Assembly (NCBI GenBank): GCA_020080175.1
Contig: JAGHQL010000112.1
Span: forward strand, 1-64,000
Origin: Glutinoglossum americanum
Taxonomy: Eukaryota; Ascomycota; Geoglossomycetes; Geoglossales; Geoglossaceae
Length of the DNA stretch: 64,000 bases
Direction of reading: 5' to 3'
Part shown: piece after piece, positions 22,560 to 52,079 of the stretch
Numbering within the stretch: the stretch's first letter is position 1
How the letters are laid out: every line of letters starts with the position of its first letter
Translations under genes and position numbers: made by a program
The notes under the pieces: generated by a model
Told to the model about the DNA's origin: nothing
What the model saw: the letters and a program-made list of their open reading frames with translations, nothing else
The model's database searches: none

Positions 22560-22975
22560 ATACCTCCTATTTTCTGAAGCTGCTTTTTCTCATTGTAAAT
22601 ACTAGTGAGTTCTATACTGTATTAAACTCTATATTACATATACAAGCAAATAGATCTTTAACTTATTTTAAATATTTTTACTTTAAAATTCTTTACCTAA
22701 ATTACTTGTAATAATTATTTATAAATTTATACTTTTTATTTTAATGTTAAATATTTTATTAATTAAATTATTCTTTAACTTTATCACTTAATATATTAAC
22801 AAGCTAAATATATATTTAAATATACTTTTATATTAAAGGAAAAAACTTATAAAAAAACTTTTTTATTAATTAAATATATGTATTCAAAGTTAATTAGTAA
22901 ATACTATAGAAAAAAATCTTATATATTTTTAATTAAGATTATAATTATTAAATTATTTAATTTACTCATTTAAAC
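22560..22975. repeat. Extreme AT-rich block (RIP-like)
   Basis: About 400 bases consist almost only of A and T, with many TATA, TTAA and TAAA words and very few G or C. The change from normal composition is abrupt on both sides. Such blocks in Pezizomycotina are typically old repeats converted by repeat-induced point mutation; no source element can be recognised. It marks the left edge of the decayed accessory block, directly upstream of the recombinase gene. Confidence 0.7.
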
Positions 22976-23344
22976 CACCAAATGGCAAATTGGCTGCTGT
23001 TTTGAGGAGGGTTCGGCCGCTGTTTTTTGCCGCCAACTTGCTAACATATCGTGCTGCTCTAACGCTCGCTTACCAAGAGTCAAGGCGGCAACACCTTGAG
23101 GACCCAAGAAAAGTGTGAGTCTCTGCCCGAATCCTCTTTCCCAATTCCTGTTTGTGACTTCTTGAGGAGCCAAAAAAGGATCCTCACCCCCCTTCCTGTC
23201 TTATGATGGGAGTTCTCCTCCTCTGCACTCCTTTCTCCCAAACCTCTTATACTCTGTTTCTCTTTGCCTTCCTTTTATTATCACTTAGTAAACTATTTGC
23301 CTTAATCGTGATTGTCATCATCTTCCTTAGCGGGTTTAATTAGT

Positions 23345-25831
23345 ATGCGCTGTTGTCAACAGGCTGATTGCTCCTCCGACGACAGTGATGAGTCTGACAT
23401 TGAGAGCTGCTTCGACTCTGAGGATGAGGAGAGTGACCCTGATACCAATCCGACCGATGTTGATACTGATGTTGAGAGAGATAACAGGGCAAACATATCG
23501 TGGCTTCTCGATGAGAACAAAGATCACCTACCAGAATACTACCTTAATCAAGAGGATGAGTTCGACGAGTTCGAGTACATAGGCGAGGATTATAGCGACA
23601 ATAGCTGTCTCCTCTTAGATTTCATTGAGGAATGGTTTTCCCAGTAGGTATTATATGCTTTGTTCTATCTGCTGTCTCCTATGCATTAGATCAATCTAAC
23701 CAGTTCATAGATACTGCAAGTACATACACAAGGATTCTGAACGGACAATGGGGGATATCTCGCTCCACGTTATCAATACTTTCTTCGATTGGCTGCTCAA
23801 TCAGCGTTGAGGAAAGGGAGAGAGGAGAGTTCGCGATGTTCGGTTGGTTAACACCCTTGGGACATACTGGAAGGTCTTTCGACTTGTGCATGAGAGAGCG
23901 ACAGGTGAAAAGATTAGAGGAGAGATCAATTGAAAGATACATCGGGTAAGTCGCATTTCATACGCCCTTTGATCTTTTTTATAAGATAGGAGATCAATTA
24001 CTAATAGACGTTTGTGGTATCTCCGCAGATCCTGAGGAAACTAGTAAAGAAGTACAAGCTTATCAAGGAAAAGCGGGAGAAGATGGCAATGTACGTTGAG
24101 GATCTCGTAGAATACCTTCAGACCAACCTGACTACAACGAAGAAGCGATACACGCATGGCCAGCACCGCATTCAGCTTGCTCTGTTCTGCCAGCTTGCTG
24201 GTTTCTCCGGAAACCGCCCTCAAGCGCTCCTCAACCTCCGGTACCAGGACATCATCGTAACCTTACTTCGGGACCCGAACGGCAGCCTGTATCGGATCTT
24301 AATAGAATTCACATGCGAGTTCACAAAGCAATTTCTCGGTGTAAAAGATGCGTAAGTTTTGCGCCTGCTCTCCTCCCCTCCCCGTACGCCCTTTGTCTAT
24401 CTTCAGTTCAAGACACTGCTCACACTGACGCTAGGAACAAATTCCCCCTTCCTGAAATCATCTTTGATCCCTCTCTCATCCTCAGTCCACATGTCTTCCT
24501 CCTGGGCCTCATCTTTGCTAACCGAGCCTTCGCGGTCCCAAATCTCACGTCTGCTGAGCAACTGAGCAGACTGGATATTCGACCTGGCTATCAGCAGCTG
24601 GAATTGCTCTTAAAGTCGAGTATGCTCAACGTCCCTATCTTTCGGAAGTCAGTCAGGACAGGGTATGGGTACGAGATCTCACCACATGAGCCTTTGTCAT
24701 ATGCGACTCTGTTGTTGCTGATGAAGGCAGTCGGTGTCATCGCTGGGTTCCTGCAGCCTACACGTCCATACTGTCTCCGCTACGGCGCTGGTAATGAGTT
24801 TAATCAGAGCAGTGTGTACCATGTGTTTCCAAACCCACCCCTAGTTGAGACATGCTAATAACCCACGAACAGGTGATGTGAGTGATGCCCTCCAGAATAT
24901 GATGCTGCAGCATGCAAATATCGACACTTTAATCAAGCACTACCTCCCGAGGCGGGTCACTGCTGACATCCGGGCCATTGTCTCTGGTTACGAGCCCCAG
25001 AAGGATCTGATGCGGGCCGCCTGTCAGATGACACGATGGATCGATCCCAACCACCCACAAAACCTCACGCACGAGCAGTCCCAGTCCATTGATAATCACC
25101 ACCGACTCCGCCAGCTTCTCGCACAGCGCGCCAGGTGGAACCGTCGCTTCAAGGGTGCGGCCACGAAACAGCCTGGGTATGGAAGCCTCAGTAGCGACAT
25201 TGTTAATTTGAGGCAGCGATTAAGGGCTGCGCTACTTAAAAAGCTCCGAGATCAGTGGGACGTAGAGAACCCTGTAAACGAGGTCGAGTTACAGCTCTCT
25301 GGGTTGAAGTTCAACAATAACCCAGGTATCAAAGTGCAAGTGGTCGATAAGATGCCGCTGATGCAAATGTGCTTGGTTGAGACGGTCATGACCATGCCAG
25401 GTACGATGGTGGAGGAGGAGTTCCGTCGGTACAACGCTGCAATCGACGCCGTCGCTGCCTACTGCCACTTCCAGGAAGGCGGAGCTGTTGCCATGCCACG
25501 TGGGAGGCCACCGACTCAGGCCAAGAGAGCTTGCCCGCAGCTGGTGGCTGAGGACGCCGAGAAGCAAGCACTCAGCGCTGCTATGTTACTGGTGTTCACG
25601 GAGGAGAGACCTACCATCTGCTTTGTATGCTTAGGAGAAGCAAGTTTACCGTTTGAGAAGCGCGTGTATTCATTTGCGAGTCCAGGAGACCTGACCAAGC
25701 ACTTTAAGCGGAAACACTTGTCCAATATTAGAAGAGGAGATTGGATCGGGTGCAAGGTCTGTCGGATGTTCTTGAAGCACAAGATGCACCTTCAAAATCA
25801 TGCAGCTAGGATTCACGGAACAGTTTCTTAA
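23345..25831 (+). pseudogene. DUF3435 tyrosine recombinase (Starship-captain-like) with C2H2 tail, decayed
   Basis: An acidic N-terminus (about 100 residues from the ATG at 23345) leads into DISLHVINTFFDWLLNQR, then LGTYWKVFRLVHERATGEK, and introns at 23946-24028, 24352-24434 and 24812-24872. Next come the DUF3435/FluG core (LALFCQLAGFSGNRPQALL, then EIIFDPSLILSPHVFLLGL), RPYCLRYGAG and LQHANIDTLIKHYLPRR. These supply the Arg, the (Y/H)xxR-like and the Tyr elements of a tyrosine recombinase. The C-terminus carries two C2H2 zinc fingers (CFVCLG...HFKRKH; CKVCRMF...HAARIH). The family includes the captains that move Starship elements, but this zinc-finger-tailed subtype also occurs outside them. 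Two in-frame TGA codons (23818 and 23931) interrupt the second exon, each one step from CGA, so the copy is probably dead. Confidence 0.82.
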
Positions 25832-25991
25832 CGTACCTTGGAGATGGGAAGGACATGGATGCATTTGGAGATGATTTCTTTTTACTTTGTAAATAGAATA
25901 TTATAGCATGCAATTCCACATTTGAAACAAACTTTCTATAACCTGTACTATCCCTAATCTCCTTAATGCATAAGTTTTACACTTGCCCTTT

Positions 25992-26654
25992 TGTTACGGT
26001 GGCCACCGGGTAAGGGCCCGGCCGGCCAATGAACAAGCTAAGGAGGAGGGCTAGCCCTAAAGGAAGGCCGGCGGAGCATAGGGGAAGTCACCCTTATACG
26101 TAATACACTAGGCCCACGACATATGAGCAGGGCCCACAGGGGCCCGCTAGCGACGTCATAAGGAATGCAACATGGAAGCACAGCCAACGGCAGAAGGGCT
26201 GCGCGCCAACAACGTCATAAGGAACTCCACATGGGAGCACGGCCGGCGGCAAAGGAACCGCACGCACGTCATGAGGAACTCCACATGGGAGCATGGCCAG
26301 AGGTGAAGGAACCACACGTATGTATAGGCAAAGGACATTAGCTAAGAGGCCCGCACAGGGCCAATAGGTAATCACCACTAGCCAATTGTAGAAGGACTGG
26401 GTGGGCTCCTGCTCCCGAGCCTCTCAGGGCTATTAGTATATATAGAAGGCCGAGGAGGGCCCGGAAGGGGACCTCATCGGTCAATACCTAGAAACCGCCT
26501 AGACAGACTAGCAAGACTAATAGACTTATCTCCTCCACCGTACCACGTGGCTGGCCCCTCCCGTTCTTTCGTGACCCGCCCTCTAGGGCTAGCTTAGCCC
26601 TGACGCCTGCGGCACCCAGGCACTCGCGGCCCACTTATATAAGCAGCCGTTACA
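25992..26654 (+). mobile_element. Solo LTR of a probable Gypsy-type retrotransposon
   Basis: A 663-bp unit starts TGTTACGG and ends CCGTTACA, giving the TG...CA form with 8-bp inverted ends. It is flanked by identical 5-bp target duplications (CCTTT at 25987-25991 and 26655-26659). A TATA-like TATATATAG near 26437 suggests a U3-R-U5 order on the plus strand. Short internal repeats (GGAACTCCACATGGGAG units) lie in the U3 part. No internal coding region remains, so this is a recombination remnant. The perfect target duplication suggests a fairly young insertion. Confidence 0.85.
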
Positions 26655-26749
26655 CCTTTCCATTGTCAAAAATTTTCTCTTTATCTACTGTAAGAAGCGC
26701 TGCTCATAAGGAAGTCAGTAACACATTTCTGTACAAGATCTTTTACCGG

Positions 26750-26900
26750 CACCTATAGGAGCCTTCAGGGGGAAAATCCCCTGTGGGCGGATGCTTCCCA
26801 GTACATATAGAAGCCCTTAGGGAAATTTCCCCTGCGGGCAGACACTTCCCGGCGCCTACAGGAGCCCTCAGGGGATTTTTCCCCTATGGAAATCTTCCCT
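26750..26900 (+). repeat. Three imperfect copies of a ~58-bp repeat
   Basis: The units share the order GGCACCTATAGGAGCC, then CCTTCAGGGGGAAA, then TCCCCTGTGGGC and ATGCTTCCC. Each contains a small inverted repeat (AGGGG...CCCCT). Confidence 0.65.
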
Positions 26901-26924
26901 GGAGAGAGACGCTTCTGTGAAAAA

Positions 26925-27285
26925 AGGAGCGGCTAGAGAAGCTAGGAGCCTAAGTAGCGTGATGGAGGCTAGAGTGGCTAGGGCAGAACGGAGCTAGAGA
27001 ACTTAAGCGATCAGAGAAGCCAGGTGGCTAAAGAAGCTAGGTGGCCAAAGAAACTAGGTAACTAGAGAAATTAGGTGGTTAGAGAAGCTTGGTGGCCAGA
27101 GAAACTAAGCGAGCGGTCAGAGTAGTGGAGGATCAAGGGGGCTAGAGCATGGAGGCGGCTGGAGCATAGGAGTGGCTGGAGCTTTCGAGTGCATGGAAGT
27201 GAGCGGCTAGAGCATGAAGGAGGCTAGGCAACAGGAATGGCTGAAGGATTCGGGAGACTAGAGCATTCGAGAGGCTAGAGCATTG
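26925..27285 (+). repeat. GCTAGAGAAGCTAGGTGGC-type minisatellite, degenerate
   Basis: A long series of short related units (GCTAGAGAAG, CTAGGTGGCC, GGCTAGAGCAT) runs without interruption from the end of the 58-bp repeats into the 66-bp array. It has no coding signal of its own. Confidence 0.55.
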
Positions 27286-27287
27286 AG

Positions 27288-27560
27288 GTGGCCGGAGAAA
27301 AGAAGGGGCTGGAGCAAATAAGTGACCGGAGCACAGAGGTGGCCAGAGCAAAGAAGGGGCTGGAGCATGTGAGCAGCCAGATCATGAAGGTGGCCGGAGC
27401 AGAAAAGGGGCTGGAGTATGTAAGTGGTCAGAGCATGGAGGTGGCCGGAGCAGAGAAGGGGCTGGAGCATGTGAGCAGCCAGATCATGGAGGTGGCCGGA
27501 GCAGAGAAGGGGCTGGAGCATGTAAGTGGTCAGAGCATGGAAGCGGCTGGAGTATCTGAG
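27288..27560 (+). repeat. 66-bp coding-compatible minisatellite
   Basis: About four copies of a 66-bp unit keep one frame open, encoding a 22-residue repeat with the core EVAGAEKGLEHVSSQIM. The period is a multiple of three, so the open frame may be only a by-product of the array. No start context or splice pattern supports a real gene. Confidence 0.6.
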
Positions 27561-28145
27561 AGGCCAAGGTATGGAGATACTGGGGGTATTGACTCATCAT
27601 CCTCATGCTCTAGCCATTCGATTGCTCTGGCCGCTTCCAAGCTCCAGTCACGCTCGAGGAGCCCAATGTAGCCTCAAAGGATAACATCTGGGGAGTCAAA
27701 ATCGGACCTTGATTTAAATAGCTCATCGTTCTCATGCTCCAGCCACTCAATTGCTTTGGCCGCTTCCATGCTCCGGCCGCTCAACTTCTCTAGATTAGAT
27801 TGGTTGAGTGCTGCTATCGCAGAGCCAGAAATGGCTCCCACAAAAATAGTCTGCTCTAAAAAAAAATACAGATATGGGGACCTATGGTAGCGGGATCTTG
27901 GTTCTAAGAGCCTAGCAGTCTAAAAGTGGAGGAGGGGCCATTTTTGGAGGAGGGGGCCGATAATGGGGGGAGGGGTCTTTTTTTGTGGGGGGAGCAAAAC
28001 CGAAAACCGGAAACCGAAAATCGAAAACCGCCAATCGTCAATAGCAAACTGTATTTTATCTCTAGTTGCCCTGCCAGGGAATCCATTAATAAAAACTAGT
28101 GTATCAACCAGAGTATGCTATATTGTATACTATCAGAAAGACAAA
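27561..28145. other. Intergenic between minisatellites and MADS-like gene
   Basis: Contains degenerate copies of a CTCATGCTCCAGCCACTC-type unit and a G-rich then CCGAAAACCG-type simple repeat at 27915-28040. No gene is seen. Confidence 0.45.
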
Positions 28146-28445
28146 ATGACAACAAAGTTAAAGAAAGCAACAGACGAAAAATTTCGCAAACGAAAAAACA
28201 ATATTTTAAAGAAAGGGAACGAGTTACGGTTACTTTGTGAAGCAGATGTCTTCATCCTGTTGTATCGCAAGGGTAGATATTATACTTACACGTCAACGGA
28301 TCAACCTTCCTGGCCTTCTTCTTTGAAAAAGATCGTAAGGATCACTTGTTTCTATATTACTTATCAAATGCTGATAGCATGTGTAGGACCAAAGCTATCC
28401 TATTCCTGTTAAAAAGACTCCTGCGGAATTTAATCAAGGGCCGAG
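28146..28445 (+). CDS. MADS-box-like (SRF-type) small protein, partial model
   Basis: The ATG at 28146 opens a short basic protein. Residues 11-45 read KFRKRKNNILKKGNELRLL, then CEADVFILLYRKGRYYTY. This fits the MADS pattern (FxKRKxxxxKKxxELxxLCxxxV). Exon 1 (28146-28334) joins exon 2 (28387-28445) across a 52-bp GT-AG intron, giving DQSYPIPVKKTPAEF after the box. A GTGAG donor at 28446 suggests at least one more exon, which I could not place. MADS proteins are DNA-binding dimers; this form is shorter than Mcm1/Rlm1 types and diverges at the DNA-contacting N-arm. Its place in the accessory block suggests a lineage-specific family rather than a core regulator. Confidence 0.62.
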
Positions 28446-28692
28446 GTGAGAATGCAGGAGATGAAATGTGATGGTACCTCTAGCCTTTATTGATTGCATG
28501 AGCTGGTACTTAGCTGTAGGAGGAAGTTATCAGTCATTGGGTAGGGTGGCTTATGTAAAAAAATAATTCATATCGGTGCATACGTCTTTGAATACTAAAC
28601 TAGCACAATAAACTAGCAAAAGAATGAGAGATGTTCAATTTAATAGTTTGCGATAAAGGAAAGTGGATATCAGAATTCAAGGGCTTCATGCT

Positions 28693-29539: not shown

Positions 29540-30235
29540 CGGAGGAAGGTAGGCTGGTAGTATCTGTCGGCCCTTGATTTGGGACGACTAATAATAGATA
29601 CTATCATCAGGGGGGCTGCATTGGGGGCGTGTGTTAGTGCATCTGGCTGGATTATACCATCTCCTTTTCGAAGATTCTTGGGCCAACTGTGAAGCTGCTA
29701 CCCGCTTCCTGTATGGTGATAGGTGTTTTGATAGGGTGTATGACAAGTGTGGTGTGTGAAGTGAAACGAAATGCCATCATAGTGGGGCCTGCTACAGCTC
29801 CCGTTGTCTAAATCCCCCTGATTCCTCAATATGATACCTGGCGCGTACAGAGCTGAACTAAGGCAGATCCCTTACCAATTAGGTGTACATCACTTATCGC
29901 ACCTTGTCAAATCGCCTGGATGTCCATCAAAGACTCATCCATCCCTGTAATTCCTGAATGGCTGAGCATGCTGCCTATCGCATGAAAGGGGAAAGCGTAG
30001 AATCGGAAGGCACTGCTTCCCGCTTATCGACTACCCATACACCTTGTAGGCAGCTTGTCATCCCCTTAAGACTGCATAATCGCCTTTGGGTATCAAAACG
30101 CTGAGCCGTAGATCAGCGTCAGGCAGCAGTCGCCATCTTGCACAGGATTTGTAGCATCCGGCTCGATGCAATGATACTTCCCACATCAGAGGTCAGAGAA
30201 TCCAGTAACTGACGTGTCCCCATAATAAGTTTAGT
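29540..30235. repeat. Copy A of a diverged ~700-bp direct repeat
   Basis: Aligned by eye with copy B (30315-30975), the two share many ordered blocks: CTGATTTGGGAC, GCATTGGGGGCGTG/GTATTGAAGGGGCGTG, GATTCTTGG, GTGAAGTGAAAC, GAAATGCC, GGCACTGC, and CATCAGAGGTCAGAGAATCCAG. No protein is recognised in either copy. Confidence 0.6.
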
Positions 30236-30314
30236 TGGTATGAAGGGCATACTGTGCCTCACTGGCGTCCCTATCCGTATCTTCTGAAAGTGCCGTGCTT
30301 CCGCCTCCGACTGG

Positions 30315-30975
30315 AGAAAGGCAAGATGGCCTGTTGATAGTATCTATTGACTCCTGATTTGGGACCTCGACTTTGCTTTATGACGAAGGCCACCAATAAC
30401 CCTATCATTAGGAGGGTGTATTGAAGGGGCGTGTTAGTACAGCTGACCTGCTCGTGCATTATCTCCCTTTCGAGGATTCTTGGACCGGCCGTTAGACTGC
30501 GGCCTATAGGGGCAAGGTATTTTAATAGATACGAGAAGAGTTGTGGGTGAAGTGAAACCGAAATGCCGTTACGCTGAGGCCCGCCACGGCTCCGGTTGGG
30601 TCTAGATCCCCGAGCTCCTCTGGATTGGGGGTAGGTCCTCCATCACTCCGGCATACGTCACCAATTACGCCTCGTCAAACCGCCCTGATGCTGTCAGGGA
30701 TACTCTCAGCATCCTAATACAAGACTCTATTCCTGTACCCCTGGATGGCAAAACGTGCTGCGTCATACAGTAGAGAAAAGCATAAAACAATCAGATGGCA
30801 CTGCCTCCTTCTCTTTGACCACCCACACACCATTGTCAAGGCCTACAGAGGGAAGGCGGTTAAGTGTACGCCATCCATTGTACCTTGCTGGGTTGCCTTG
30901 ATATTGCCGTGGTGCATCCCGCATCAGGGGTCAGAGAATCCAGCAGCTGACGTATTGTCTTTGCACAAGATAACA
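30315..30975. repeat. Copy B of a diverged ~700-bp direct repeat
   Basis: Second member of the pair described at 29540. The order of shared blocks is kept, with many small gaps and substitutions, so the duplication is old or was sped up by C-to-T mutation. Confidence 0.6.
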
Positions 30976-31266: not shown

Positions 31267-33290
31267 TCACTCAGATGAAACCTTGTCAGTGATCTTAGTG
31301 GTCATGGCCCGTCGAGCCTGTGTACGGCGTTTGTAATGAAGTATACGTCGACGACTAATCACGGTTGGGCCTTTGTGACTCGAGGCTGAGTTTCTCGCAG
31401 CTACTTCATTTTGTTCCGTTGTCTCGACCTCCTTCACCGATTGCGTGAGCTCCACCGGTCAATTAGGTTGGGACGCTGCGTCATTGCAATCGCTCGATTG
31501 AATAGACCATAGGCTCTGCTTGAAAAAATGAACCACGGAATATCGTTCTCCCTTCCAGTATGACACAAAGTGCCTGAGGAGGCTACCTCGTATTTCAACG
31601 ATCGACTCAGGAGGCATGGGTACCCGGATCCCTAGCTGAGGCAAACAGAAATCCCTACCGGCGAAGTCCCCAAACACACCTATCCAGGCCCACCCCCCAG
31701 TCCAATCACCCGAGTCCACATGTTCCTCGGTCAGACTGTTGATAAGAACAGCGCGGAGAGGAAACAACTTGTCTGCCTCATCCCGAGTGGTGGCCACCTT
31801 CGCCGCCAGATCTAAGTCTTTGTAGGCAGCAGCATATTCATGTCGTGTTTTGGGGTCAATGATTTGAAACAACAGATCGACTGATTGCGTCAATGGGCCG
31901 AGTGACTTCAAAAGTCAGGTTCTGTATCGCATCGCGTAGGAGCCGTCCTTGGGATTCGATCTGGTACCACCCTTGAGCATGTCCTTGGTGAGAATGGGCC
32001 CGTTTCGTTTTCCGAGCTCTGGCCATGTCCCCCAATGGTATACCCCGCAATGGCCATAGGGCGGTTGGAGGTGAGGGTTCTGCTCCACCCACCATTTGTG
32101 ATGCGTGTGGCGGCAATCATCAACTACAGGCGGAGGTTGCGAATATGCATATCCATGCAGGTTTTTCGTGATGTGACGTAAATAGTTATTACCCTCCTCG
32201 TAGCCTTAAGATTCTTCCAGCCAGTTTGGGAAGACGGCAAGGACAGGGATATTGTTTTTATCTCTGGCGATAAAACTGGTATCAGCGGGTGTCTGATCGT
32301 ACAGTCGTTCCGCAGCCCACAAACGGCGATGGAAAGAGTGCTCTCTTGCTAGCCATTCGTCGTATGTGAGCATGGCTGGTGCATTCGAGCGCTTCTTCGG
32401 TGTATTCAAGTGCTTCTGCTTAGACTCGCTAGTATTGTCGAACAAAAGCTCGATTGCTGCCTGGCGACTCGATGCATGTTTGAGCTCCTAGTGACCGATT
32501 AGCACAATGGAAGTCTTTGGAGCTAGGGTCAACCCACTGAACTCGGGAAACGATTGTTGGGTTTCCGTCCTGCTTGATATTCTACTGTATCATAAAAAAA
32601 TTCTATACCGGGCTTCACAATATACCTCGTGAGATATTCATTACGATATTCCGTATACCAGTCAGGGTCGATATCATCCACGAACAATCCATGTTGTTGG
32701 GCATCCTCAATGCCTTGGCTTATAGCTGCTTTGGCCGGGCCGTTATTTAAAGTGGCAGGATCGTTGATATCGATCCAGGGAAAGCGATCGATGCGAACGG
32801 GCTGAAATAGGCCTGGGATATTCTTTGTGGCAGACTCCCTGGGAGGGTATCCAATCGGTCGGATCTCTTGAAACCTATCACATCATGAATTAGCTTATTG
32901 TATTCAACTTGTAAGAATGAAAAGGAGGGTAAACCGTGTGCCACTAATGGGTCTAAATCTGTCTCGTACATTGCGCGCGAACGCAGAGATACCGCCAGCC
33001 AGTTGAGCAAGAAGCCACGGTGGATTCTCAAGGCCGTGAACCTCCATTTCATGTGTCGGGGGTGCATTGGGGTCTCTGGCCACAGCAGCCCCACGTCTAA
33101 CCATGATAACCTAGTGATCAATAAGAGATAAATGTAAAAAGAAAGCCTAATACATGGGAATCAGTCAGAAGGGTATCTCGGACGAGCTTCGGACACGACG
33201 CAAACCAATTCAAGATTCCCGCGCGATGTGTGACTCAGAACCAAAGGACTAAAGGCCGTGCATACCTGACTGTTCCATCGACGAACATAG
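31267..33290 (-). pseudogene. 2OG-Fe(II) dioxygenase-like gene (TET/JBP-like fold), decayed
   Basis: From about 33290 downwards, spliced pieces read MFVDGTVR, VARDPNAPPTHEMEVHGL, FQEIRPIGYPPRESATK, FPWIDINDPATLNNGP and DDIDPDWYTEYRNEYLTR. A single long frame then runs from 32450 to 31267. It contains LTEEHVDSGDW, WIGVFGDFAGRDFCLPQLG, RGSLLRHFV and GERYSVVHF. This gives the HxD...H...R signature of double-stranded beta-helix 2OG-Fe(II) oxygenases, with the LG.F.G..LCLP.LG core seen in TET/JBP-like fungal families. The final frame is cut by TAA 32206, TGA 31915 and TGA 31459, each one transition from CAA or CGA, while the frame itself is never shifted. Substrate is unknown; in the TET/JBP group it is a methylated base in DNA, but this assignment is inference. 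Confidence 0.68.
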
Positions 33291-33487
33291 CATCCGACCC
33301 CCGAAACCATGGCTTCACTCGTGAGGCGCGAGGTGCGGAAGGATAGATGAAGGAGAGTTTTCGGTGGCGAGCGGCTACGCCGCCTCTTTGATGTGGCTCA
33401 GTTGTAGCTAACCCACATGCCAAGCCCCTGCACGCTTCTGGTCACTATACAACTCCCCCATCTGTTCAAAAATAGCTCCGGCTACAT

Positions 33488-33640
33488 CGACCATATGCTT
33501 TTACCGACTTCATGATTTTATACAAGTGGTGGATCAAATCCGGAAGCGTGAAGTAGAGAATGCTTGCAATGACTTCATTGATCGAACGGCTATCTGTGAT
33601 TTAGCTTCATCCTTCCATGACAAACACTACCGACTCTCCT
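33488..33640 (+). pseudogene. 5' fragment of the APH-like kinase gene (duplicate)
   Basis: This piece matches 38285-38440, the upstream region and first codons of the kinase. Shared words include ATGATTT, ATACAAGTG, TGCTTGCAATGACTTCATTG and TAGCTTCATCC. The kinase ATG is GTG here. It ends where the next gene begins, and that gene's first ATG (33617) lies inside this duplicate. Confidence 0.7.
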
Positions 33641-36600
33641 GTGCTTGCCCGTCTTAGGGGGGGTTCGCACACAAGCAACAAAGGTTCAACCCATGCAAAC
33701 CGCCCCCACAGCACAGATCTTGTCCGGCGGATCGTGATCAACTCGGCTCAAGATGAAGCTCATGCAGTTATTGCCAGACTCGTGAAGGAAAGCACTCAGA
33801 CCTCAGCTGAAGTGTTAGGTCTGCTGAAGGAACTCATCAACCTGGCTACAGACTATGATGAGCAAATGGCGGAGATTGTTGTTGCAGCTTGGACATACAT
33901 AGAGACACATAAGTTGTGGGATAGGATATATGCCAGCAGCTATGAGTTACAACAGGTTATGAACTTCAAGCAAATAGTTGAACCCATATTACAGAGAGTT
34001 AGGCGTTATGACCTGGAGAGGATGAACTTGATGAAGACCATTACTCGCCGCTGGCGCACCGTTATGGCAGAGACTATACCAGCAGATTTTCGACCTAAAA
34101 CGATGGGTCGAAGCTTGCTAACAGCTCTGTGCAGCTTGGCAGATCGAGTGCCTGATCATGAGGAGGCAGTTAGGCTGATTCGAAGACAAGTAGCTTGCCG
34201 GATTGGTGAGAAGCCACGGAGGGTTCAGGTGGTAAAAACTAGAGACATCCAGGCGATTATGGATGGTTTCTACAGCATTGACCGAATGGCTATAGGAGGA
34301 GCTGTAACTGATTCAGCTGATAATAGATCTGAGCAGTCTGAGCGATCTAACCAGCTCGAACAGTCTGATCAGCTGGGTCAAACCGGGCAGCCTGAGCAGT
34401 CAGACTATTCCAACCAATCTAACCAAAGCAAGATGTCGGGAGGTGATGAGGAAGACGAGATAGAAGATGAAGTAGAGGAAGACGAGGTAGAGGAAGACAA
34501 GGTAGAGGAAGACAAGGTAGAGGAAGACGAGGTAGAGGAAGACGAGGTAGAGGAAGACGAGGTAGAGGAAGACGAGGTAGAGGAAGACNNNNNNNNNNNN
34601 NNNNNNNNNNNNNNNNNNNNNNNNNNNNNNNNNNNNNNNNNNNNNNNNNNNNNNNNNNNNNNNNNNNNNNNNNNNNNNNNNNNNNNNNNNNNNNNNNNNN
34701 NNNNNNNNNNNNNNNNNNNNNNNNNNNNNNNNNNNNNNNNNNNNNNNNNNNNNNNNNNNNNNNNNNNNNNNNNNNNNNNAGGTAGAGGAAGACGAGGTAG
34801 AGGAAGACAAGGTAGAGGAAGACAAGGTAGAGGAAGACGAGGTAGAGGAAGACAAGGTAGAGGAAGACAAGGTAGAGGAAGACGAGGTAGAGGAAGACAA
34901 GGTAGAGGAAGACAAGGTAGAGGAAGACAAGGTAGAGGAAGACAAGATAGAGGAAGACGAAGTAGAGGAAGACGAGGTAGAGGAAGGCGAGGTAGGGGAA
35001 AACGAGGCAGAGGAAAACGAAGTAGGGGAAGATAAGACCAGTTCTGGCTGCCAACAGTATCAAGCTGAATGTTTGCAGTTCTTAAGCAGGATTCCAGACA
35101 AGCTATGGATGCCATACGGAAATCGCATGCAGCTGCTAAAGCTGGCCAGAAGAGTCACTTGGACGAAGTTTTGCTACAGACACATACGGGTATTAGCTGT
35201 CAACTGTGCTGGGCTTAAAAATAGCTCAAGAACCAACAAGAAGATGCTGATTGGTTGGATGAACATAGTGTTACACTACCATGACTGGCCCTACAAGCTT
35301 CAAAGGAAGTTTCCAGGCTGGTTTCCAGCTAAGGTTGTCCCGACAGGAGAAGTACGCAAACATCTAGGTCCCTGTATGTGGAAACCTCAGAAACCCAAAG
35401 CGTACGCCAACTTTCAGTTCGATCAGAAGGAGATTTTCAACCGCTTCACGAGGTCTGACGATGTATAGGATAAGTTGCAGTGTGAAGGTACTATTAACAT
35501 TGACAGACTCTTTGATTACTTGGTGAACGACCCTCAAGTATTTTGTCTAGTAGAAGAGGAGTTTAACCTCTACAAACATCATCAACGCAGCTCTGCGGAG
35601 GATGGGGATGAGCCTCGAGGCTGGATACGGCATATGTTTTACTCACTAACTCAGCAGTTGGTGAGGCAGGACCCAGCATACTGGGCTATTGTAGCAGCGG
35701 CGAGACCTGACCAGAACTAGCGTTTGATCAGCTATCTTTATTACATCAAAGATACTACACCAGGAGAAGCGACTGGCTTTAGGCATCTTGACATTAATGT
35801 GGACCAATATGTAAAGACCCATGAGGGCAAAAATATCATCTAAGGATCACTGAGCTTAGACAATGAAGATGAGGATGGATGTACAGTACTGGTTAAGAGG
35901 TTTCATCACGTTATCCATTTGTGGTGGGAACAGGTCATGATGCGGGGAAAGGCTAAGTCCGGAAATACCACTAATGCTTCTCTGGACACATACACACAGG
36001 AGGACAGAAAGATATTCAGAGAACTGAAGCCCATTCCATGCACACGAGGGGCTATCTGCATCACAAAGCTGGAAATCCTACACGGTTTTACACCAGTAGC
36101 TCATAGACAACAGCGGACGGTATTTGTGTAGCATTATGGCATCCATGAGGATCACGAAACGTTGGATTTGGAGAAGGCTGAGACTTGGTCAGATCTGGTG
36201 CACTGCTACCAAGGATTCATTGCACTGCATAAAAGCACCAGTGGCGAGGGTTTCCGCTACAGTTGGCCCAGCTTTACTTTTCTTGAAGTTACAAGGCTCG
36301 GTTCTACCAGTTGTGTGAGTGATGTTATGGTAGGGGCTAGACGTTGGGATGATTCAGCGGTGCTGAAGGAGCGAGACATCCTGCTAGGGTTCGACCATAC
36401 TGCTGCATGAGAACTTGTTAATGAGACTAGAGCTCAGTTAAAGCTAGAGTTCATCAAGGCGTTCCAGTATATCTGGGAAAATGAGGTGGCTGCATATGGG
36501 GACCGATCATTCTACTTGCTAACTAGAGGAGAAATCAGACTAGCAGTGAACAACTGTATTTCAGATAGCAATGTCAGTGAGCTGTCAGTGATGGACGAGG

Positions 36601-36725
36601 ATGCAGTAAAGACTAGAAGGACTGCTATCTGCCAGGGCAAGGGCAGAAACAAGGGCAAGGCCCCGAGCTCTTCTGATACTGATATGAGCTCCCAGCTAGT
36701 AACTAATGGCGGTGGCAGCGAGTAG
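33617..36725 (+). pseudogene. Large putative 2OG-Fe(II) oxygenase-fold protein with acidic repeat, decayed
   Basis: The N-terminal part (33617-34430) is helical and ends Ser/Gln-rich. A 15-bp array encoding an acidic Glu-Val-Glu-Glu-Asp repeat follows, holding a 191-base assembly gap. The same repeat frame continues after the gap into FLSRIPDKLWMPYGNR, FDYLVNDPQVFCLVEEE, EATGFRHLDINVDQYV, GCTVLVKRFHHVIHLWW, ICITKLEILHGF, then RTVFV and LGSTSCVSDVMVGARRWDD. HxD, a distal His and a following Arg are spaced as in a double-stranded beta-helix oxygenase. I know this protein type from fungal accessory regions but no function. Five in-frame stops (35466, 35718, 35841, 36129, 36408) are each one transition from a sense codon. 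The gene is divergent from the dioxygenase-like gene to its left. Confidence 0.55.
34461..35035 (+). repeat. 15-bp microsatellite GAGGTAGAGGAAGAC with assembly gap
   Basis: Near-perfect tandem copies of a 15-bp unit lie on both sides of 191 N (34589-34779). The gap size is probably arbitrary, because left and right frames agree only if the true length restores the phase. Last copies degenerate toward 35035. Confidence 0.9.
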
Positions 36726-37639: not shown

Positions 37640-37648
37640 CTTGAACGT

Positions 37649-38195
37649 GGCTCCCACTAGGCGCACACCCGTGTGCGTTTAGACAAACAGGCTTATATAA
37701 GCGATCCAGCCTCTCCAAAGTGAAAAACATAGCGTGCGCACCAAGAACGCCACGTCGCGCACGAAAATGGACAGTACCATTGTGTTCGTAGTATTCAATA
37801 ACCTCATTTAGCACCTTCAATGAATTTTTTAAATCGCTTTTTGGAGTTGCAAGCTGACTTACAGCTTTTTCCTGCTCAATTTTAACTCTGACTAGGTTGA
37901 GTGGGGTGTGGTGTCGGCTAGCTATTAGGCGAGGTCACATGGCTGGCCCAACACCCAACCCAGCCAGAGTAGAAGAAATCTGTGAACCAGCTTGCAACTC
38001 CAAAAAGCGATTTAAAAAATTCATTGAAGATGCTAAATGAGGTTATTAAATACTGCGAACACAATGGTACTGTCTATTTTTGTGCGCGACATGGCGTTCT
38101 TGGTGCGCACGCTATGTTTTTCACTTTGGAGAGGCTGGATCGCTTATATAAGCCTATTTGTCTAAACGCACATGGGTGTGTGCCTAGTGGGAGCC
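37649..38195. mobile_element. Foldback MITE of the MULE (Mutator-like) family
   Basis: Two inverted arms of about 208 bp (37649-37856 and 37988-38195) flank a spacer of about 130 bp. The ends begin GGCTCCCACTAGGCGCAC, nearly the same as the ends of the MULE at 58158-61393, including a CGCACAC/GTGTGCG hairpin. The flanks are a 9-bp target duplication, CTTGAACGT (37640-37648) and CTTGAATGT (38196-38204), differing by one C-to-T. A 9-bp duplication is typical of Mutator-like transposition. Each arm contains CTTATATAAG, a palindromic TATA-like site. The element has no transposase and lies 130 bp before the kinase start. Confidence 0.9.
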
Positions 38196-38324
38196 CTTGA
38201 ATGTCTGGCTAACACTATCTTAATAAGCTCTCCAGAGGAAGTCTCAAGAACGCAACACATGCTTTAACTTAAGTATTTTCCATCAATCGTATGCTTTCAC
38301 TAACTTTATGATTTCATACAAGTG

Positions 38325-39835
38325 ATGGATCAAATTCGGAGGCGTGAGGTCGAAAGTGCTTGCAATGACTTCATTGCTTCAATCGATCAAACAGCTGTCT
38401 GTGATCTAGCTTCATCCTTCTATGACCGAAAGCCATGCCGAATGCTCAAGGAACCACAACGGGGTAGTTACAACGTCTGTTTTCCAGTCATCTTTGCATC
38501 CGACCAGGAGAGCAACGAAGGGGAGAAATGGATGGTACATTTCCCGTTATTGCTGCGTCTACCATTCTGGGAGGAAAAGCTTCGGAGTGAAATTGCAACA
38601 ATGAAGTAAGTTGCCGGATACCCATGAATCGGCTCACTGGACTGATTGACGTCGCTATTGCGGGGTTTAGGTATATCTCGGAATGAACAACCATTCCTGT
38701 ATCATGCCTATTTGGTTATGGATTCAAAGGCGATAATTCAACGGACTGCCCTTTCATGATTATGGAGTACATCGACGGTGTATCACTATTCACTATTGAT
38801 TTTGACAGTCTCGATGACAAGCAAAGGACTCATCTACTCGGCCAACTGGCAGATATTTTCATTTAACTCCACCTTCAGCAGTTCGACCGTATAGGATCTC
38901 TCACGCTCGACCGAGATGACTCGTCTTGGTCATTTGGTGAAAGCCAACCCCTATCTATCGACATCAATGACCAAGAGGTTGATGGCTTAGATGTCGGCTG
39001 TATTATTAGACCTGATCAGACGTACGACTTGGCGATTGACTATACATACACCCTAATGCAGCTCGTCTTCAATCAGTTTCTTCGAGGGCGACACAGCGTA
39101 TACAATGAAAAAAATGCACGGTCAGAGCTGTATGGTCTTCACAAATTTCGTACCCTTTTGATGGAATATATTCTTCCTGAGTACAATCATGAGCCATTCG
39201 TCTTAATGCATAGTAATTTCCGCAGCTCGAACATCATCATAAATGAAAATCTTAACATTGTCAGTGTCATCGACTGGGAATAGAGTCGAACAGTTCCAGT
39301 ACAATTGTTCGTGCCTCCCGAATGGCTTACTGGATATGAGGTCAATGGGCTACTGTCCATCTATAATAATTTTCATTATATGCGGAAGTTCTTTAACTTT
39401 AGGAATATAGTCTGGGACCGGAAGAGGAATTTAAGGCAGGAGAATACTCTACCTACCGTCCCATTATCAAGGCTCTGGCATACAGTTAACCATGATGTAA
39501 ACTTCTTCATTGCTCATACACTTTTGCGATTTCACATGCTTGGAGACATCTACTGGGGTTGCCTCAACCGCCACTACTATGGCACTGAACCTGAAGGCAG
39601 GGTCAACAACTTCTACGAAACGCAGGCAATAGAATGTCAACTTGAGATTGTGAAGAAGAAATTAGACAACTTGGCGATATACGAGAAGGAGTTAGAGAGT
39701 CTCGGTATTAAAAACGATCAGTCGGAAAAGCCGGATCCTCTCAGAGCCATAGCGACAGGTGGAATTGAGGCAAAGGGTGTGGTTTCTTACTCAAAGACAC
39801 TATTCACGTGTCTCTCTTTATTATCTGGGAGGTAA
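38325..39835 (+). pseudogene. APH-family phosphotransferase (aminoglycoside-kinase-like), decayed
   Basis: Exon 1 (38325-38605) and exon 2 (38671-39835) join across a 65-bp GT-AG intron with no loss of frame. Motifs in order: SSFYDRKPCRML, RGSYNVCF, LRLPFWEEKLRSEIATMK, GYGFKG, CPFMIMEYIDGVSL, VLMHSNFRSSNIIINENL, then VSVIDWE and LFVPPEWLTG. This is the fungal APH/choline-kinase-like fold. The catalytic loop, normally HGD, reads HSN, so the catalytic Asp is replaced by Asn (GAC to AAC would be one transition). Stops at 38684 (TGA), 38864 (TAA) and 39281 (TAG) replace Trp or Gln codons by single transitions. Such kinases are widely expanded in Pezizomycotina and mostly uncharacterised. The MITE just upstream may overlap the promoter. 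Confidence 0.85.
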
Positions 39836-46254: not shown

Positions 46255-46400
46255 GAGCAATATTGTTAGGAGAGCTAGCTCACCTAGGAGCCAGCTCACT
46301 TAGGAGCCAGCTCACCTGGGAGCCAGCTTATCTGGGAGCCAGCTTATCCAGGAGGTAAGCTCATTTGGAAGCAAGCTCATCTGGGAGTCAAAACTGTTCG
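46255..46400 (+). repeat. 18-bp minisatellite (GGAGCCAGCTCACCTAGG-type)
   Basis: About eight imperfect copies of an 18-bp unit occur in a row. They lie 180 bp before the AAA gene start, so they may be in its promoter. Confidence 0.75.
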
Positions 46401-46582
46401 CTAAAGAGTTCCGTTGCATCTCACGATGAGTGTCCCTAACACAGATCCTATTCAAGTACTTCATACCGTTGTTCACAGTGAATTCTCCTTACATTTAAAT
46501 CAGTGAGTAAGAAGCATAAGTCAGTCACACGAGTTCGATTTTGTGTGTAATTTGCATCTCTCGAACAGCATCACCAGAAGCA

Positions 46583-49061
46583 ATGGCACCAGCCAAGATG
46601 ATTTCAAAGACCGTACCAACTTTATCGAATCCAAATATACCTCCACAGACCCCAACCAAGGATGTGGGTCCTATAATCTCCTCGCATCACATCCAACAGT
46701 TCCTGGACATCTTGAATCGATTAGCACCTAGCAAGGAGGAGAGTAAACCGACAGAAATCAAAGTGGATAATGAAAATGAGAAGCGTCCGGAGGCTAGAGC
46801 TTCAAAGCTCGAGTTCAAAATAGTCAGAGAGATGTATGTTTCCCCAAAATCAGAATAGGGGGCGAGCGCGAGTTAATACTAGTTCAGTTGAAGCAAACAC
46901 GAGTACAAGTACATAACTGCAGAATCCCAGGAGAGCTTAATCAAGGATGATAAATGGGACGAGTATATTTTTGTTATTCGCAAGAAATTCGGTATGGATC
47001 GATCTCGCTTTATTTTCTGAGCTTATCCATAGTGACATGCTTCTCAAGACAAGGAAAACAAATACTACACCGAATATGTAGATGTCAAGTCTGAAGGGCT
47101 ACAGAACATCCTATGCGAAATCTTCAAGAGTGTCAATAGAGTCTCCCTTGCAGAAGATAAGCCATCAGTAAGCAAGAGTACTATAATCTCTAAAGACATT
47201 TTCCGTTCATCCTAACTCCAGCTTTAGGTTCATCCGACTCTCTTACTTAGCTGCCTACCTCAGTTAGAAGCATATCAGACTACTCATGGCACGCACTCGA
47301 GTATCCAGCATCTTAAGTTACTGATACAATACCTCACGGATCACTACAATGCAACACTCAAGCGTTTCAATGCCCTCCTCCAAGAAGGCAAGATTAGCTT
47401 CAACCTTCTCTGGGTCCTGTTCCAATCAAACACGCTAGTCTACACAACTTGTCCCGGTTTGGATCAACCCAGATGTCTTAAGTTTGACTTTGGCCAAATA
47501 GAGCCATCATCTCAAGGCGAGCGTTTCTTCAAACTAGATTGCCAATATCTCAACTATGATGGAAAGGTATTTGGCAAGATTGAAACCACTCTAACTATGG
47601 CCGAGTTCCGAGGCGTAAGGAAAATCAACATCCTTGATGTCTTTCCTTTACAATATCATGAACAAGTGGAAAAGTTAAAGGATACTCTCACCACGTGTGG
47701 CCGGAAATTCGTCACCTTGATAGGAATACATTACTGTCACTATGAAGGCATTGCATTTGTTAAGCGAAAGGAGAAGTACAACAAAGTTTACATGAAAGGC
47801 CGGGTTATGATTGACGCTAGCGAGTTCAAGCAGACCGACCCAAATTACAGCAACTCACGCATCAGCTCCTGTACGTTTCTATTCGAAGGACACTTTTCAA
47901 ATGATTCGGAAGTTGTCAAGACTAATGGCATATTACCTAGTGAGACGAAGGAAGAAGATTTGCTGCTCTGCAATCCAATAGTATTGGGATTCAGTTTCAG
48001 CAATAAACTGTGGTGTGAGTGTATCCTTGAAGCTTTATCGCTACTTAACATACTCTTGCTAAGCTGATAAATTTGAATGTAGTTGAATTTGCGGTTGCTC
48101 ACGTCCAGGATATCATCTGGGACCCCTCATCATTCGAATGCCTTATGCTTCCAGATGACTAGAAGAATATCATACGAGCGCTTGCAGAAAGCCAAAAGAT
48201 TAAAACGGACAAGTCTTTCGATGACTTTGTAAAAGGAAAAGGATAAGGCCTTGTCATCCTTCTACAGTATAACTCCTGTGTTTTGTTTCTCTATTTAATT
48301 TTTGCTGATGTCTTCCGTAGTGGTCCGGCCGGGGTTGGAAAGACGTTGACAGCTGAGGGAATTTCAGAATTCCTTAAAAGACCCCTTTACGCGATATGAG
48401 TCTACCTGAAAACCTATTCATCTTTATTCACCCTTATGCTGACCAGGTGTAGGTTTCTGCTGGTGATCTCGGTGTAAATCCTAGTCGACTAGAAATAAAA
48501 CTTTCTAGTATACTTCATCTAGCTCGTCATTGGAATGCTATACTGCTTCTTGATGAAGCTGATATTTTCTTAGAGGAGCGCTCCCTTCACGATACCAATC
48601 GCAATGCTTTGGTATCTGTATTTCTACATCTAATGGAGTACTTTCAAGGAACTATGTTTCTTATTACAAACTGAGTCAAAACATTTGATGAAGCATTCCA
48701 AAGCAGAATACATCTCGCATTGAGATATAAAAAATTAGGTAAACCCACAAGAGAGAAAGTCTGGGCTGCATTCCTTCAGAGGTCCGGCAGGAGTCACATT
48801 AAACCGAGTGATATTGAGAAGTTGGTGGAGAAGGATATAAATGGGAAACAGGTAAGTTTCAGACAGGATTGGAATTAAATTTATGCTGATTGAGGTCAGG
48901 ATTTAGATAAAAATACTGTGCAAACAGTACTCGCCTTAGCTATGAACGAAGGGGAGGATATGTCTTACGAACATTTGGAAATTGTTATTGATGCAGCTGC
49001 TGACTTTGATCGTGACTTCAAGAAGTTAGGGCACCTCAAAAATTTGAGCTCATACGTATAA
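46583..49061 (+). pseudogene. Fungal AAA+ ATPase with DUF7025-like N-domain, decayed
   Basis: Coding order: MAPAKMISKTVP (ATG 46583), KLEFKIVREM, DDKWDEYIFVIRKKF, YVDVKSEGLQNILCEIF, then a long exon with TLVYTTCPGLDQPRCLKFDF, FRGVRKINILDVFPL and IGIHYCHYEGIAF, the DUF7025-like region. Next come IVLGFSFSNKLW, Walker A GPAGVGKTLTAEGISEFL (48325 onward), Walker B AILLLDEADIFLEERS, FQSRIHLAL and YEHLEIVIDAAADF. Members are predicted AAA+ remodelling ATPases; partners are unknown. Stops at 48160 (TAG), 48244 (TAA) and 48672 (TGA) are single transitions. The donor of the intron after RPLYA reads ATATGAGT where GTATGAGT is expected, a G-to-A change. The gene is therefore inactive as sequenced. Confidence 0.8.
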
Positions 49062-50092
49062 CTATTTACTTTGATGGAGGGTTTATGTCCTGTTCATTAA
49101 CGAATCTCATAATTTCATTCTCCACCTCTCATAACTATCACTACTTCTGAATCTAGTTCCTTAATCTCATGCATATCATGTAGCTTGTGCTTTAGTCATG
49201 GTAGCGCGACCCTTCTAAGACTCGTTAATATTATCTCACATTATCTAACCAAGTACCTTCATATTATTTGTCCCCAATTTAGAGGTCACCAGATTGCCAC
49301 TTTCGTCCCTGGGAAGGAGCGTAGCTTTAGTTAGTCACAAGACGGAGGTGCAAGGGAGCTGGGGGAGTAGGGAGGGAGTTGTAGCCTGAGCAGCATGGAA
49401 CCTGTTCTGGCTCTCTTCGGGTGTAGTTGCCCATTATTATTTCGGATCCAGCATACAGGGTAAATTTCTTTTTATTGTCTAAGTCATTACCACCTGTTGC
49501 CTACTTGCTAGACTCCGATTTCACTCAAGTGCCTTTATTCCTTATGACGTTCTTTAATTCAGGTGCTGCTCACCTACCTAAAGTGGCATGACCTGATGAA
49601 GTTCATTTTTTGTCTTGTATCGCCAAGATAACAGAAATCCATAACGAGCTCACCCCAAATTCAGTGGGTGAGCGACGCTGCCCTGTGCTCACCTGAGCTG
49701 GGTGAGTTTTGAGTGAGCATGGGTGAGTATGACTGAGCACGGCTGAGCACTGGGGAGCTTAGATAAGCTCCGGCGGTTCCCCCCACCCTGTTTCTGCTTG
49801 AGCCACAACTTTATCAATGAATTCTATCATGATTGTAGAGAATTTTTTTATAATTATAAGGTTATTTTACATACCCTACAGCTTCACACAAGCACACAAG
49901 CAATGCTTACAACTTCAAGCTAACAATTTTATAGACTCTCTATAACACATTCTTGATACTACATATGACATCTCTTCCTCTTTTAACTAATTGGATGGTA
50001 ATACCAGAGTTAATTCTTTAATATAGAATATGAAACCTTTGGCCTAGCTAAGTAGTAAAGAGAAGAAACTATAATAATATATGTCAGCTACT
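49062..50092. other. Intergenic with GAGC-rich tandem sequence
   Basis: At about 49645-49765 short units of the type GGTGAGC/GACTGAGCAC repeat irregularly. The rest is AT-rich without a gene. Confidence 0.45.
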
Positions 50093-50321
50093 TGTCACGA
50101 ATGCCAATTCCGGGTGCTTGGAAAGCTTATATGGATGGCTTCTATACGACGATTCTAAGCTACAGGAGAAAAGGAGGTTCAGGCTGAGGCCGAGCTATAT
50201 ACACAGTAGCTCGAGCATTGCGTTATTCCATGTGACCGCGCGTGCTGTGCGCGCTGAGGCTCGGAGGGCCATATGGCCCGCGAGCGAGGCTCTGCGAGCC
50301 GCGCGAGCCATAACCGTGACA
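50093..50321 (-). mobile_element. Possible short solo LTR
   Basis: A 229-bp unit reads TGTCACGG ... TTCGTGACA on the reverse strand, with inverted ends and a TATA-like TGTATATAG about two-thirds along. This is LTR-like. No matching target duplication is seen (CTACT and CTTAT), and no second copy is in the window, so the call is tentative. It lies at the 3' end of the DUF6589 relic. Confidence 0.4.
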
Positions 50322-50339
50322 CTTATTACTAGTATGTCA

Positions 50340-52079
50340 ATTAGTAATAATAAACCATCGAATCTGGTGTACAAGCTCTATAACTGCCAACAAGTCTAAG
50401 AACTTAATTATATCCCTGATGGTGGTAGCGTCCCTCTCAAGCCCTAATCTACCTAGCAGCCGCCAGAAGATTGTGCATATCCTGGCCTGATAGCTGTGAA
50501 TGACGAGTTCTTCCAGAGCAAAAAAGTCCGCATGTTCTCTGTTGATCTTTTTCCGCTGTCAGAAGTTTATGGCATAGTACAAGGTAGACTGATCGCTACC
50601 ACCACCGCCACCAAAATGAGATCGGGATATCATATAGAGGTAGTTCATTTTTAGGTGAAAGAACGCCGGAACTAGTAAAACCCATCGAAGGCTGTCATAA
50701 GGTCCTATGGAGTGCTGGCGGCGACGCTTGATTGTGCGGATATGCTGTACAGTTTTCTGGTCACCGTACACAAGACTTAGTTGATTCACGAAGCTGGTTT
50801 CATCGCGGTCATACTGCCGCCTAAAAATGCTCTCTAAGACGGCCAAGTTGCCGGCGTTGGTACTTTCGTTATGAGGTATGATGTTAAGGGCATGGTGGAT
50901 TGTTTTTTGTGGCTGCAAGACGTCGACTTGGGGCATAGTGAGGCGGGATAGCGGCTCCAGACAACACAGCTTGTCGATTGCCTCAGGAAACGCAGTGCGA
51001 ATGGCTCGGAATATAAAAAAGAGTGAAGCCTACTGACAGAATGTTAGACCTAGCCCATAATGCTTGAGGCAACTTACCTGTTGCCTAACTTCGTCATCGT
51101 GGTTGCCAGGCGCGAATAAGACCTGCTGGATACTGAGCTGTGCTTGAGGATTCAACATATCCTGCCGTAGCCCACCAGAAGGTATTTCGAGGCCCTCAAA
51201 TACCTTACCAGTGGTAACTGAATTAAAAGAGCTGTTATCTTCTATCCTTTGCTCTCGAACCCCTTCTGTTTGCTCAAAGTTATCGTAAACGGTGACGGCG
51301 TTCGAGGCCTGTCCTGCCGAAACAACTTCGTCTGCAGAGTCTTTCGAGAGCGTTCTGACGTTTTTCATAATTGTATCGTAGCTAATAGTAACTCCGAATT
51401 GATGAAGGAGCTCTATGACCACTCGTTTTACCCCTTTCGAATGCAAGTAGAGGCCTAATAACGAGGGTATATTGATTCCGCTGCGAGGACGAAAAGAATA
51501 ACACAGTATAGCTAGGATCATTGTCATACGGCTAGAACGAAGTGGTGACCCTACCGATCGGGTGGGTTCTGAAATAGCGTGGAGGAGACGTAATATATTA
51601 GGAGCATTTTTCGTCATCGTTGCTAACAAAGCTTCATTACTGATAGACGTAATGTTCTTGTCTGAAGCATGGTACCCGCCGAAGAGCTCAGACTCAGTCA
51701 GCCCTACCATTTCCTTTCGAAGATCTGGTATTCCCCATTCTAGTGCTTTCAAAACCTCGACACGAGTGGTGGGATGAGCTTCCAGATACTGGAGGATTTC
51801 GGGACTCGTATAAGCCGCTTCAAAGAAGTGCTTCTGCCTAACCCTATTTCCTGCGTCAGTCTGGCTGAACAAGAGTTTAATATACTCAGCCGGCGTTAGA
51901 TTTAGCTCTGTCCGGAGGAAATCTGAGGCCTTTTTAATCTTTTCGGCCGAGCTCAGGCGTGCTCGGTATCGGCGGATACGGGGCTTAGGGGCTACTTCTT
52001 CGGGGGCGAGCGGGGCCTCAAGCGGGCTGGCCATGCTTATTGCAGGCGATAGCGACGATGATTGAGACTCTGATGCCAT
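50340..52079 (-). pseudogene. DUF6589-type protein, decayed near its C-terminus
   Basis: Exon 1 (52079-51078, 334 codons) is open: RLSSAEKIKKASDFLRTEL, KHFFEAAYTSPEILQYLE, VTVYDNFEQTEGVREQRI and NSSFNSVTTGKVFEGLEIP. A 48-bp GT-AG intron leads to exon 2 from 51029: FFIFRAIRTAFPEAIDKLCC, VYGDQKTVQHIRTIKRRR, PYDSLRWVLLVPAFFHLKMN and YLYMISRSHFG. This order is characteristic of DUF6589 proteins, which are multicopy in many fungi and suspected to derive from transposases. A TGA at 50559 (one step from CGA) interrupts the frame, which then continues as RKKINREHADFFALEEL and HSYQARICTIFWRLL to about 50340, where an LTR-like unit follows. No terminal inverted repeats could be assigned. Confidence 0.72.

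Follow-up and report, generated by a model that had tools for sequence, protein, structure and literature searches.

A DUF3435 recombinase gene and a TET/JBP-like dioxygenase gene in a decayed, possibly Starship-like gene block of Glutinoglossum americanum

We analyzed the first 64,000 nucleotides of contig JAGHQL010000112.1 of Glutinoglossum americanum (the window, to which all positions refer), where a gene block of ~29 kb sits between an open frame of 715 amino acids on the reverse strand and NLR-type open frames on the forward strand. The genes of the block point in both orientations and the first of them, after an AT-rich stretch, encodes a DUF3435 tyrosine recombinase. An earlier note on this DNA had proposed that the block may be a decayed element resembling the Starships of Pezizomycotina, with its genes ruined almost only by stop codons of C-to-T/G-to-A origin.

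The recombinase and the TET/JBP-like gene

22560..22972, no strand: AT-rich block of 413 bp, GC 0.143, no CpG
23345..25831, + strand: DUF3435 tyrosine recombinase gene, from Pfam and a 5-exon gene model (exons 23345-23643, 23711-23945, 24029-24351, 24435-24811 and 24873-25831)
31462..33104, - strand: TET/JBP-like 2-oxoglutarate dioxygenase gene, from Pfam and an alignment with Coprinopsis TET (CcTET), its earlier exons assigned by eye only

Pfam scans covered all six frames of 23-53 kb at a threshold of E 0.01, and sequence comparisons with the PDB list matches up to E 1. The recombinase matches DUF3435 in two frames (E 7.6e-45 and 2.4e-71) on the forward strand, so that the AT-rich block followed by a rightward recombinase, as described in the earlier note, is borne out. 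Its four introns are 61-83 bp long with GT..AG ends, and the exons join without a change of frame. The resulting model is full-length, with 731 codons including the final stop, and is interrupted by two internal TGA codons, both in exon 2. The arginines of LNLRYQD and YCLRYGAG, the histidine of LQHAN and the tyrosine of LIKHYL are candidate catalytic residues that would fit the general pattern of tyrosine recombinases. Two Cys/His motifs are visible by eye at the C-terminus, neither of which is named by Pfam. A recombinase exon matched nothing in the PDB up to E 1.

As the first gene of the block, directed inward, the recombinase is placed like the captains of Starships, which sit at the 5′ end of the element (PMC12134995, PMC12153272). 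AT-rich regions are the insertion place of many Starships (PMC12134995), and the 5′ end of a putative element would lie here at the AT-rich block.

The TET/JBP-like gene lies 5.6 kb from the recombinase and contains two in-frame stops in its last exon (31465-32487). The Pfam family Tet_JBP is matched on the reverse strand at 31.5-31.9 kb with E 4e-4 in the scan and E 7.8e-5 in a second search, in which the score of 22.4 bits is below the curated cut-off of 34.9. CcTET from the PDB aligns over 85 residues (E 0.0027, or 0.0093 with a longer query), and the H-x-D motif, the distal histidine and the arginine of this alignment are all present in the gene; we take these residues to be the metal and 2-oxoglutarate ligands. 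Because the Pfam score falls under the cut-off although the CcTET residues are in place, we call the gene TET/JBP-like rather than an assigned member of the family. In a test for the double-stranded beta-helix fold, AlphaFold2, run on the single sequence without an alignment, returned a mean pLDDT (predicted local distance difference test) of 36.9, too low to judge the fold. The earlier note had counted two oxygenase-fold genes, of which this is the one that we recover; an oxygenase fold at the C-terminus of the coiled-coil gene described below is not supported, as Pfam gives no match there at E 0.01 and 34782-36722 matches nothing in the PDB up to E 1.

TET/JBP genes are known from 11 lineages of fungal DNA transposons and occur in Helitron and IS3EU elements in Ascomycota; it is proposed that the transposon-encoded enzyme counters methylation (Kojima 2025, PMC12730594). 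Transposon-encoded TET/JBP genes are also described in Basidiomycota and Pezizomycetes (PMC13297926), where Starships are not mentioned. The locus resembles these transposons in having a TET/JBP-like gene near a mobility gene and differs in that its mobility gene encodes a DUF3435 recombinase; the main text of PMC12730594 names no tyrosine recombinase, Crypton, Starship or DUF3435. TET/JBP-like cargo of the kind seen here was not found in the Starship literature searched. Within the literature searched, the proximity (5.6 kb) of such a gene to a DUF3435 recombinase, with which it may or may not have traveled, is therefore unreported.

Mode of decay

33617..36722, + strand: long coiled-coil/Glu-rich repeat gene, its second half interrupted by 5 in-frame stops
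38304..39832, + strand: APH-fold phosphotransferase gene, Pfam APH E 1.5e-6, 3 in-frame stops
46583..49058, + strand: DUF7025 and AAA ATPase gene with several exons, placed by eye, and 3 in-frame stops among those counted
50340..52082, - strand: DUF6589 gene, Pfam E 2.5e-35, 1 in-frame stop
37649..38195, no strand: miniature inverted-repeat transposable element (MITE) of Mutator-like element (MULE) type, arms of 229 bp that are 93% alike, flanked by a 9-bp repeat whose copies differ at one C/T position
58158-61393, right of the NLR: MULE-like transposon of 3,236 bp, 68-bp perfect terminal inverted repeat, 9-bp flanking repeat with one difference, 15-bp minisatellite inside
61487-64000, running to the end of the window: second MULE copy, inverted, sharing 67% identity with the first across 2.6 kb, MULE domain E 1.6e-23

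Together with the two stops each of the recombinase and the TET/JBP-like gene, these four genes bring the total to 16 in-frame stops (TGA 7, TAG 5, TAA 4) in ~3,640 codons of six genes. For the recombinase the count covers the exons of the model, for the TET/JBP-like gene its last exon, for the coiled-coil gene 33617-34588 and 34782-36722, for the APH gene two exons, and for the AAA and DUF6589 genes five and two stretches, respectively. It leaves out a sequence pair at 29-31 kb, the frames at 40-46 kb, the opening exons of both the TET/JBP-like and the AAA gene, the final stops beyond 36722, and the MADS domain. No frameshift is needed in the counted exons, a statement that leans on the chosen introns because the exon borders of all genes other than the recombinase were chosen by eye. 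One expected donor site of the AAA gene lacks GT. Outside the count, two overlapping frames at 41.26-41.91 kb may mean a frameshift.

The earlier note read the stops themselves as C-to-T/G-to-A changes. We rejected the stop types as proof, since any of the three stop codons, TAA, TAG and TGA, can be reached from a sense codon by a single change of this kind, and turned to other measures, on which the claim fares better. Two internal duplications show an excess of transitions: the MITE arms, which were possibly unequal already at insertion, are separated by 15 transitions and 1 transversion, and a portion of the 5′ part of the APH gene that is duplicated at 33485-33621 differs from 38281-38426 by 19 transitions and 1 transversion (with one 9-bp gap). 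The combined ratio of 34:2 compares with 257:147 between the two MULE copies (Fisher p 6e-5) and 48:26 in two sequence pairs at 29-31 kb (p 8e-4), although these comparison pairs are more diverged (~67-75% identical), so that some of the contrast may reflect saturation. Had the decay been unbiased, 16 stops should be accompanied by ~13 frameshifts at a ratio of one indel to twenty substitutions (probability of seeing none, 2e-6), or by 2.7 at one to a hundred (probability of seeing none, 0.07). Both ratios are assumed, as is the nonsense fraction, set at 0.045, for which we compute 0.034-0.042.

GC segmentation separates 23.0-34.6 kb (0.489) from 34.8-51.7 kb (0.439), a step that coincides with an assembly gap of 191 N at 34589-34779 inside the coiled-coil gene. 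As the low-GC part is the right-hand one, the part with the recombinase and the TET/JBP-like gene would be less affected by decay. The CpG observed/expected ratio averages 0.67 at 34-50 kb (8 windows, 0.55-0.90) versus 0.84 at 1-22 kb (11 windows, 0.72-1.09). Values of 0.51 and 0.65 at 26-30 kb are likewise low, and the 38-40 kb window reaches 0.90, so the loss is neither confined to the block nor even across it.

Decay by C-to-T and G-to-A changes is supported by the duplications, by counted frames that need no frameshift, by the lower GC of 34.8-51.7 kb and the lower CpG; the spectrum is observed in the duplications, and its direction and cause are our reading of it. The decay is of transition type, like that of repeat-induced point mutation (RIP), and the AT-rich block has RIP-like indices over its short stretch, with TpA/ApT of 1.24 and (CpA+TpG)/(ApC+GpT) of 16/28. 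In the gene block, by contrast, canonical RIP is not supported: the composite RIP index is at most 0.02 in all 18 of the 2-kb windows at 22-58 kb, and the changes are not limited to CpA, the base after the changed C in the two duplications being A in 11 cases, G in 8, T in 7, C in 6 and unclear in 2. Given these mixed contexts, the low index and the reduced CpG, methylation followed by deamination in several contexts fits better than CpA-directed RIP.

Remaining genes, flanks and borders

20057-22201, - strand: open frame of 715 amino acids in the left flank, no Pfam match
25992..26654, no strand: insertion of 663 bp resembling a solo long terminal repeat (LTR), TG..CA ends, 5-bp direct repeat CCTTT on either side, just behind the recombinase
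28182..28289, + strand: MADS (SRF-TF) domain, E 9.9e-7, in open frame 27924-28409
52276..56507, + strand: NLR-type gene in two open frames, SesA (52.5 kb) followed by NACHT and ankyrin repeats

Most of the accessory genes named in the earlier note are recovered. The MADS-like gene, the coiled-coil gene with its long Glu-rich repeat frame, the APH kinase, the AAA ATPase, DUF6589 and the NLR beyond the block all stand, while the zinc-finger gene has no Pfam match at E 0.01 in any frame of 23-53 kb. Of the flanking genes said to be intact, Bor1 is confirmed by an HCO3_cotransp match (E 3.8e-34) and the NLR frames are open; GH76 found no Pfam match in the two left-flank stretches tried, most of 1-20 kb being left unscanned. 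Rfam at gathering scores and ARAGORN with bacterial settings gave no matches.

The Glu-rich run of the coiled-coil gene is encoded by a 15-bp tandem repeat at 34448-35036. The frame of this gene changes across the assembly gap, whose true length may differ from the 191 N given. The APH match is accompanied by a weaker Choline_kinase match at 38.7-39.3 kb, and the gene has two weak PDB matches (E 0.69 and 0.72). The APH catalytic loop (39205-39235) differs from the aligned PDB chain in the weaker of these alignments (E 0.72), and the enzyme from this copy may therefore have lacked activity regardless of the stops. The AAA gene matches DUF7025 (E 4.1e-27) and AAA (E 9.2e-5) at 47.4-48.7 kb. At 29601-30970, two diverged tandem copies of a sequence with no assigned family are present, with 29601-29817 resembling 30402-30611 and 30167-30215 resembling 30905-30953.

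The DUF6589 gene is truncated: its match (50.4-51.0 kb) spans profile positions 31-240 of 410 and ends at ~50.37 kb, and the frame ends at 50.34 kb. The missing 3′ part behind this abrupt end at 50340 could mark a deletion or the right-side border of an insertion. Comparison with the PDB gave one weak match only (E 0.99), and no mention of DUF6589 was found in the literature searched. The NLR is the right neighbor of the block and may or may not belong to it; one Starship NLR likewise begins with SesA and NACHT (PMC12134995).

The left edge (22960-23345) was compared with 26-64 kb, tandem repeats being masked. For direct matches the best score was reached by 19 of 60 shuffles, and the longest exact match is 13 bp; the earlier note had identified no terminal direct repeat pair either. 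Among inverted matches, 59 of 60 shuffles attained the best score, and the element may have its right end past the window. Short direct repeats of the Starship type would be unrecognizable here without the right border. The motif TTAC(N7)A, the canonical Hephaestus target (PMC12153272), occurs four times in 22560-22985 versus 1.81 expected under a first-order Markov model of that stretch, once on the edge of the AT-rich block (22962). We dropped it as too common in AT-rich DNA.

Minisatellites with units of 17, 34, 51 and 102 bp follow the solo-LTR-like insertion (26746-27552). The ends of the MITE differ from those of the MULE at 58.2 kb by 3 and 5 mismatches in 23 bases, a likeness which suggests that this MULE family may have mobilized the MITE.

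Origin of the block

Our tentative reading, which we hold to be about evenly poised, is that the block is the relic of an accessory element of Starship type that was mobilized by its tyrosine recombinase. Its gene content and order, the stop counts and the spectrum of the two duplications are observed; mobility, borders and a single origin are proposed. The likeness to Starships lies in a DUF3435 gene that is the first gene, points inward and stands beside an AT-rich stretch, in the diverse neighbors, and in an NLR close by. The DUF3435 recombinase (23.3-25.8 kb) would be the captain, excising the element and inserting it at a target site, here beside an AT-rich stretch that may already have been mutated. 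The genes to its right would be cargo, to ~50 kb at least and perhaps including the NLR. The element would then have been silenced, and its genes ruined by C-to-T/G-to-A changes in mixed contexts with some loss of CpG, for which cytosine methylation and subsequent deamination may be responsible rather than CpA-directed RIP.

Several observations weigh against this reading. The searches from the left edge found no terminal repeats, direct or inverted, above shuffles. In Aspergillus fumigatus, direct repeats of 2-12 bp were found in 19 of 20 elements and terminal inverted repeats in 18 of 20 (PMC12153272), the latter being described elsewhere as present "sometimes" (PMC12134995). DUF3723, ferric reductase and patatin-like genes, which are common Starship families, gave no Pfam match at E 0.01 in any frame of 23-53 kb; all three are also absent from the Starships of Gaeumannomyces (PMC12134995), and NLRs, another common cargo, are represented by the neighboring gene. 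Decay of six genes is a further difference from Starships, and the uneven GC speaks against a single history of the entire block. Three smaller transposon insertions or relics lie within the block or next to it: one like a solo LTR, a MITE of MULE type, and a MULE whose perfect terminal inverted repeat measures 68 bp. Finally, pattern-matching stretches in viral contigs (2 for the C-terminal exon of the recombinase, 15 for the TET/JBP-like core, 3 for the N-terminal part of DUF6589) and in prokaryote contigs (24 for a recombinase exon) were in no case confirmed as relatives; this says little, as fungal sequences were outside the comparison. Of the interpretation given in the earlier note, the captain-like position of the recombinase and the decay by point mutation are supported, and the unity of the block as one element is a proposal.

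A serious alternative, which we consider quite possible if on the whole doubtful, is that a solo DUF3435 gene landed by an ordinary accessory region with an NLR and other fast-evolving genes, that the rest never moved with it, and that all decayed by a common C-to-T process. A DUF3435 gene is said to be more often solo than a captain (PMC12134995), and in Verticillium 21% of 556 such genes are in Starships identified by Starfish (PMC12289983), but some of the genes counted as solo may only seem so where element borders were missed (PMC12134995, PMC12289983). The terminal repeats not above shuffles and the difference in GC between the recombinase segment and 34.8-51.7 kb fit this alternative as well; the position of the recombinase at the block edge, and a style of decay that it shares with the block, speak against it. 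It is improbable that the block is an accumulation of remains from independent transposons, in which the TET/JBP-like gene and perhaps the incomplete DUF6589, a family of unknown function, came from other DNA transposons of the TET/JBP-carrying type: the LTR-like, MITE and MULE insertions and the Helitrons and IS3EU of Ascomycota (PMC12730594) make such a source conceivable, but no DDE transposase or Helitron helicase family was found by Pfam at E 0.01 in 23-53 kb, where split or decayed exons could escape, and none of the 15 listed inverted-repeat pairs of at least 30 bp, shorter ones not having been sought, flanks the TET/JBP-like gene.

Within the reading as a Starship-type relic, a more specific proposal concerns the cargo. 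In the active element, the TET/JBP-like enzyme could, judging from its family, have oxidized 5-methylcytosine and countered silencing. That a Starship-type element carried its own methylcytosine dioxygenase for this purpose is an unlikely but specific proposition, which would add a tyrosine-recombinase lineage to the 11 known TET-carrying ones; this copy would nonetheless have been methylated and destroyed by C-to-T changes.

If the block is not one element, the locus is an ordinary decayed accessory region. If it is, the locus is the relic of a giant transposon with unusual cargo. Should the proposal about the dioxygenase be true, giant fungal transposons, like smaller ones, may carry an enzyme against DNA methylation, and their escape from silencing would become testable.

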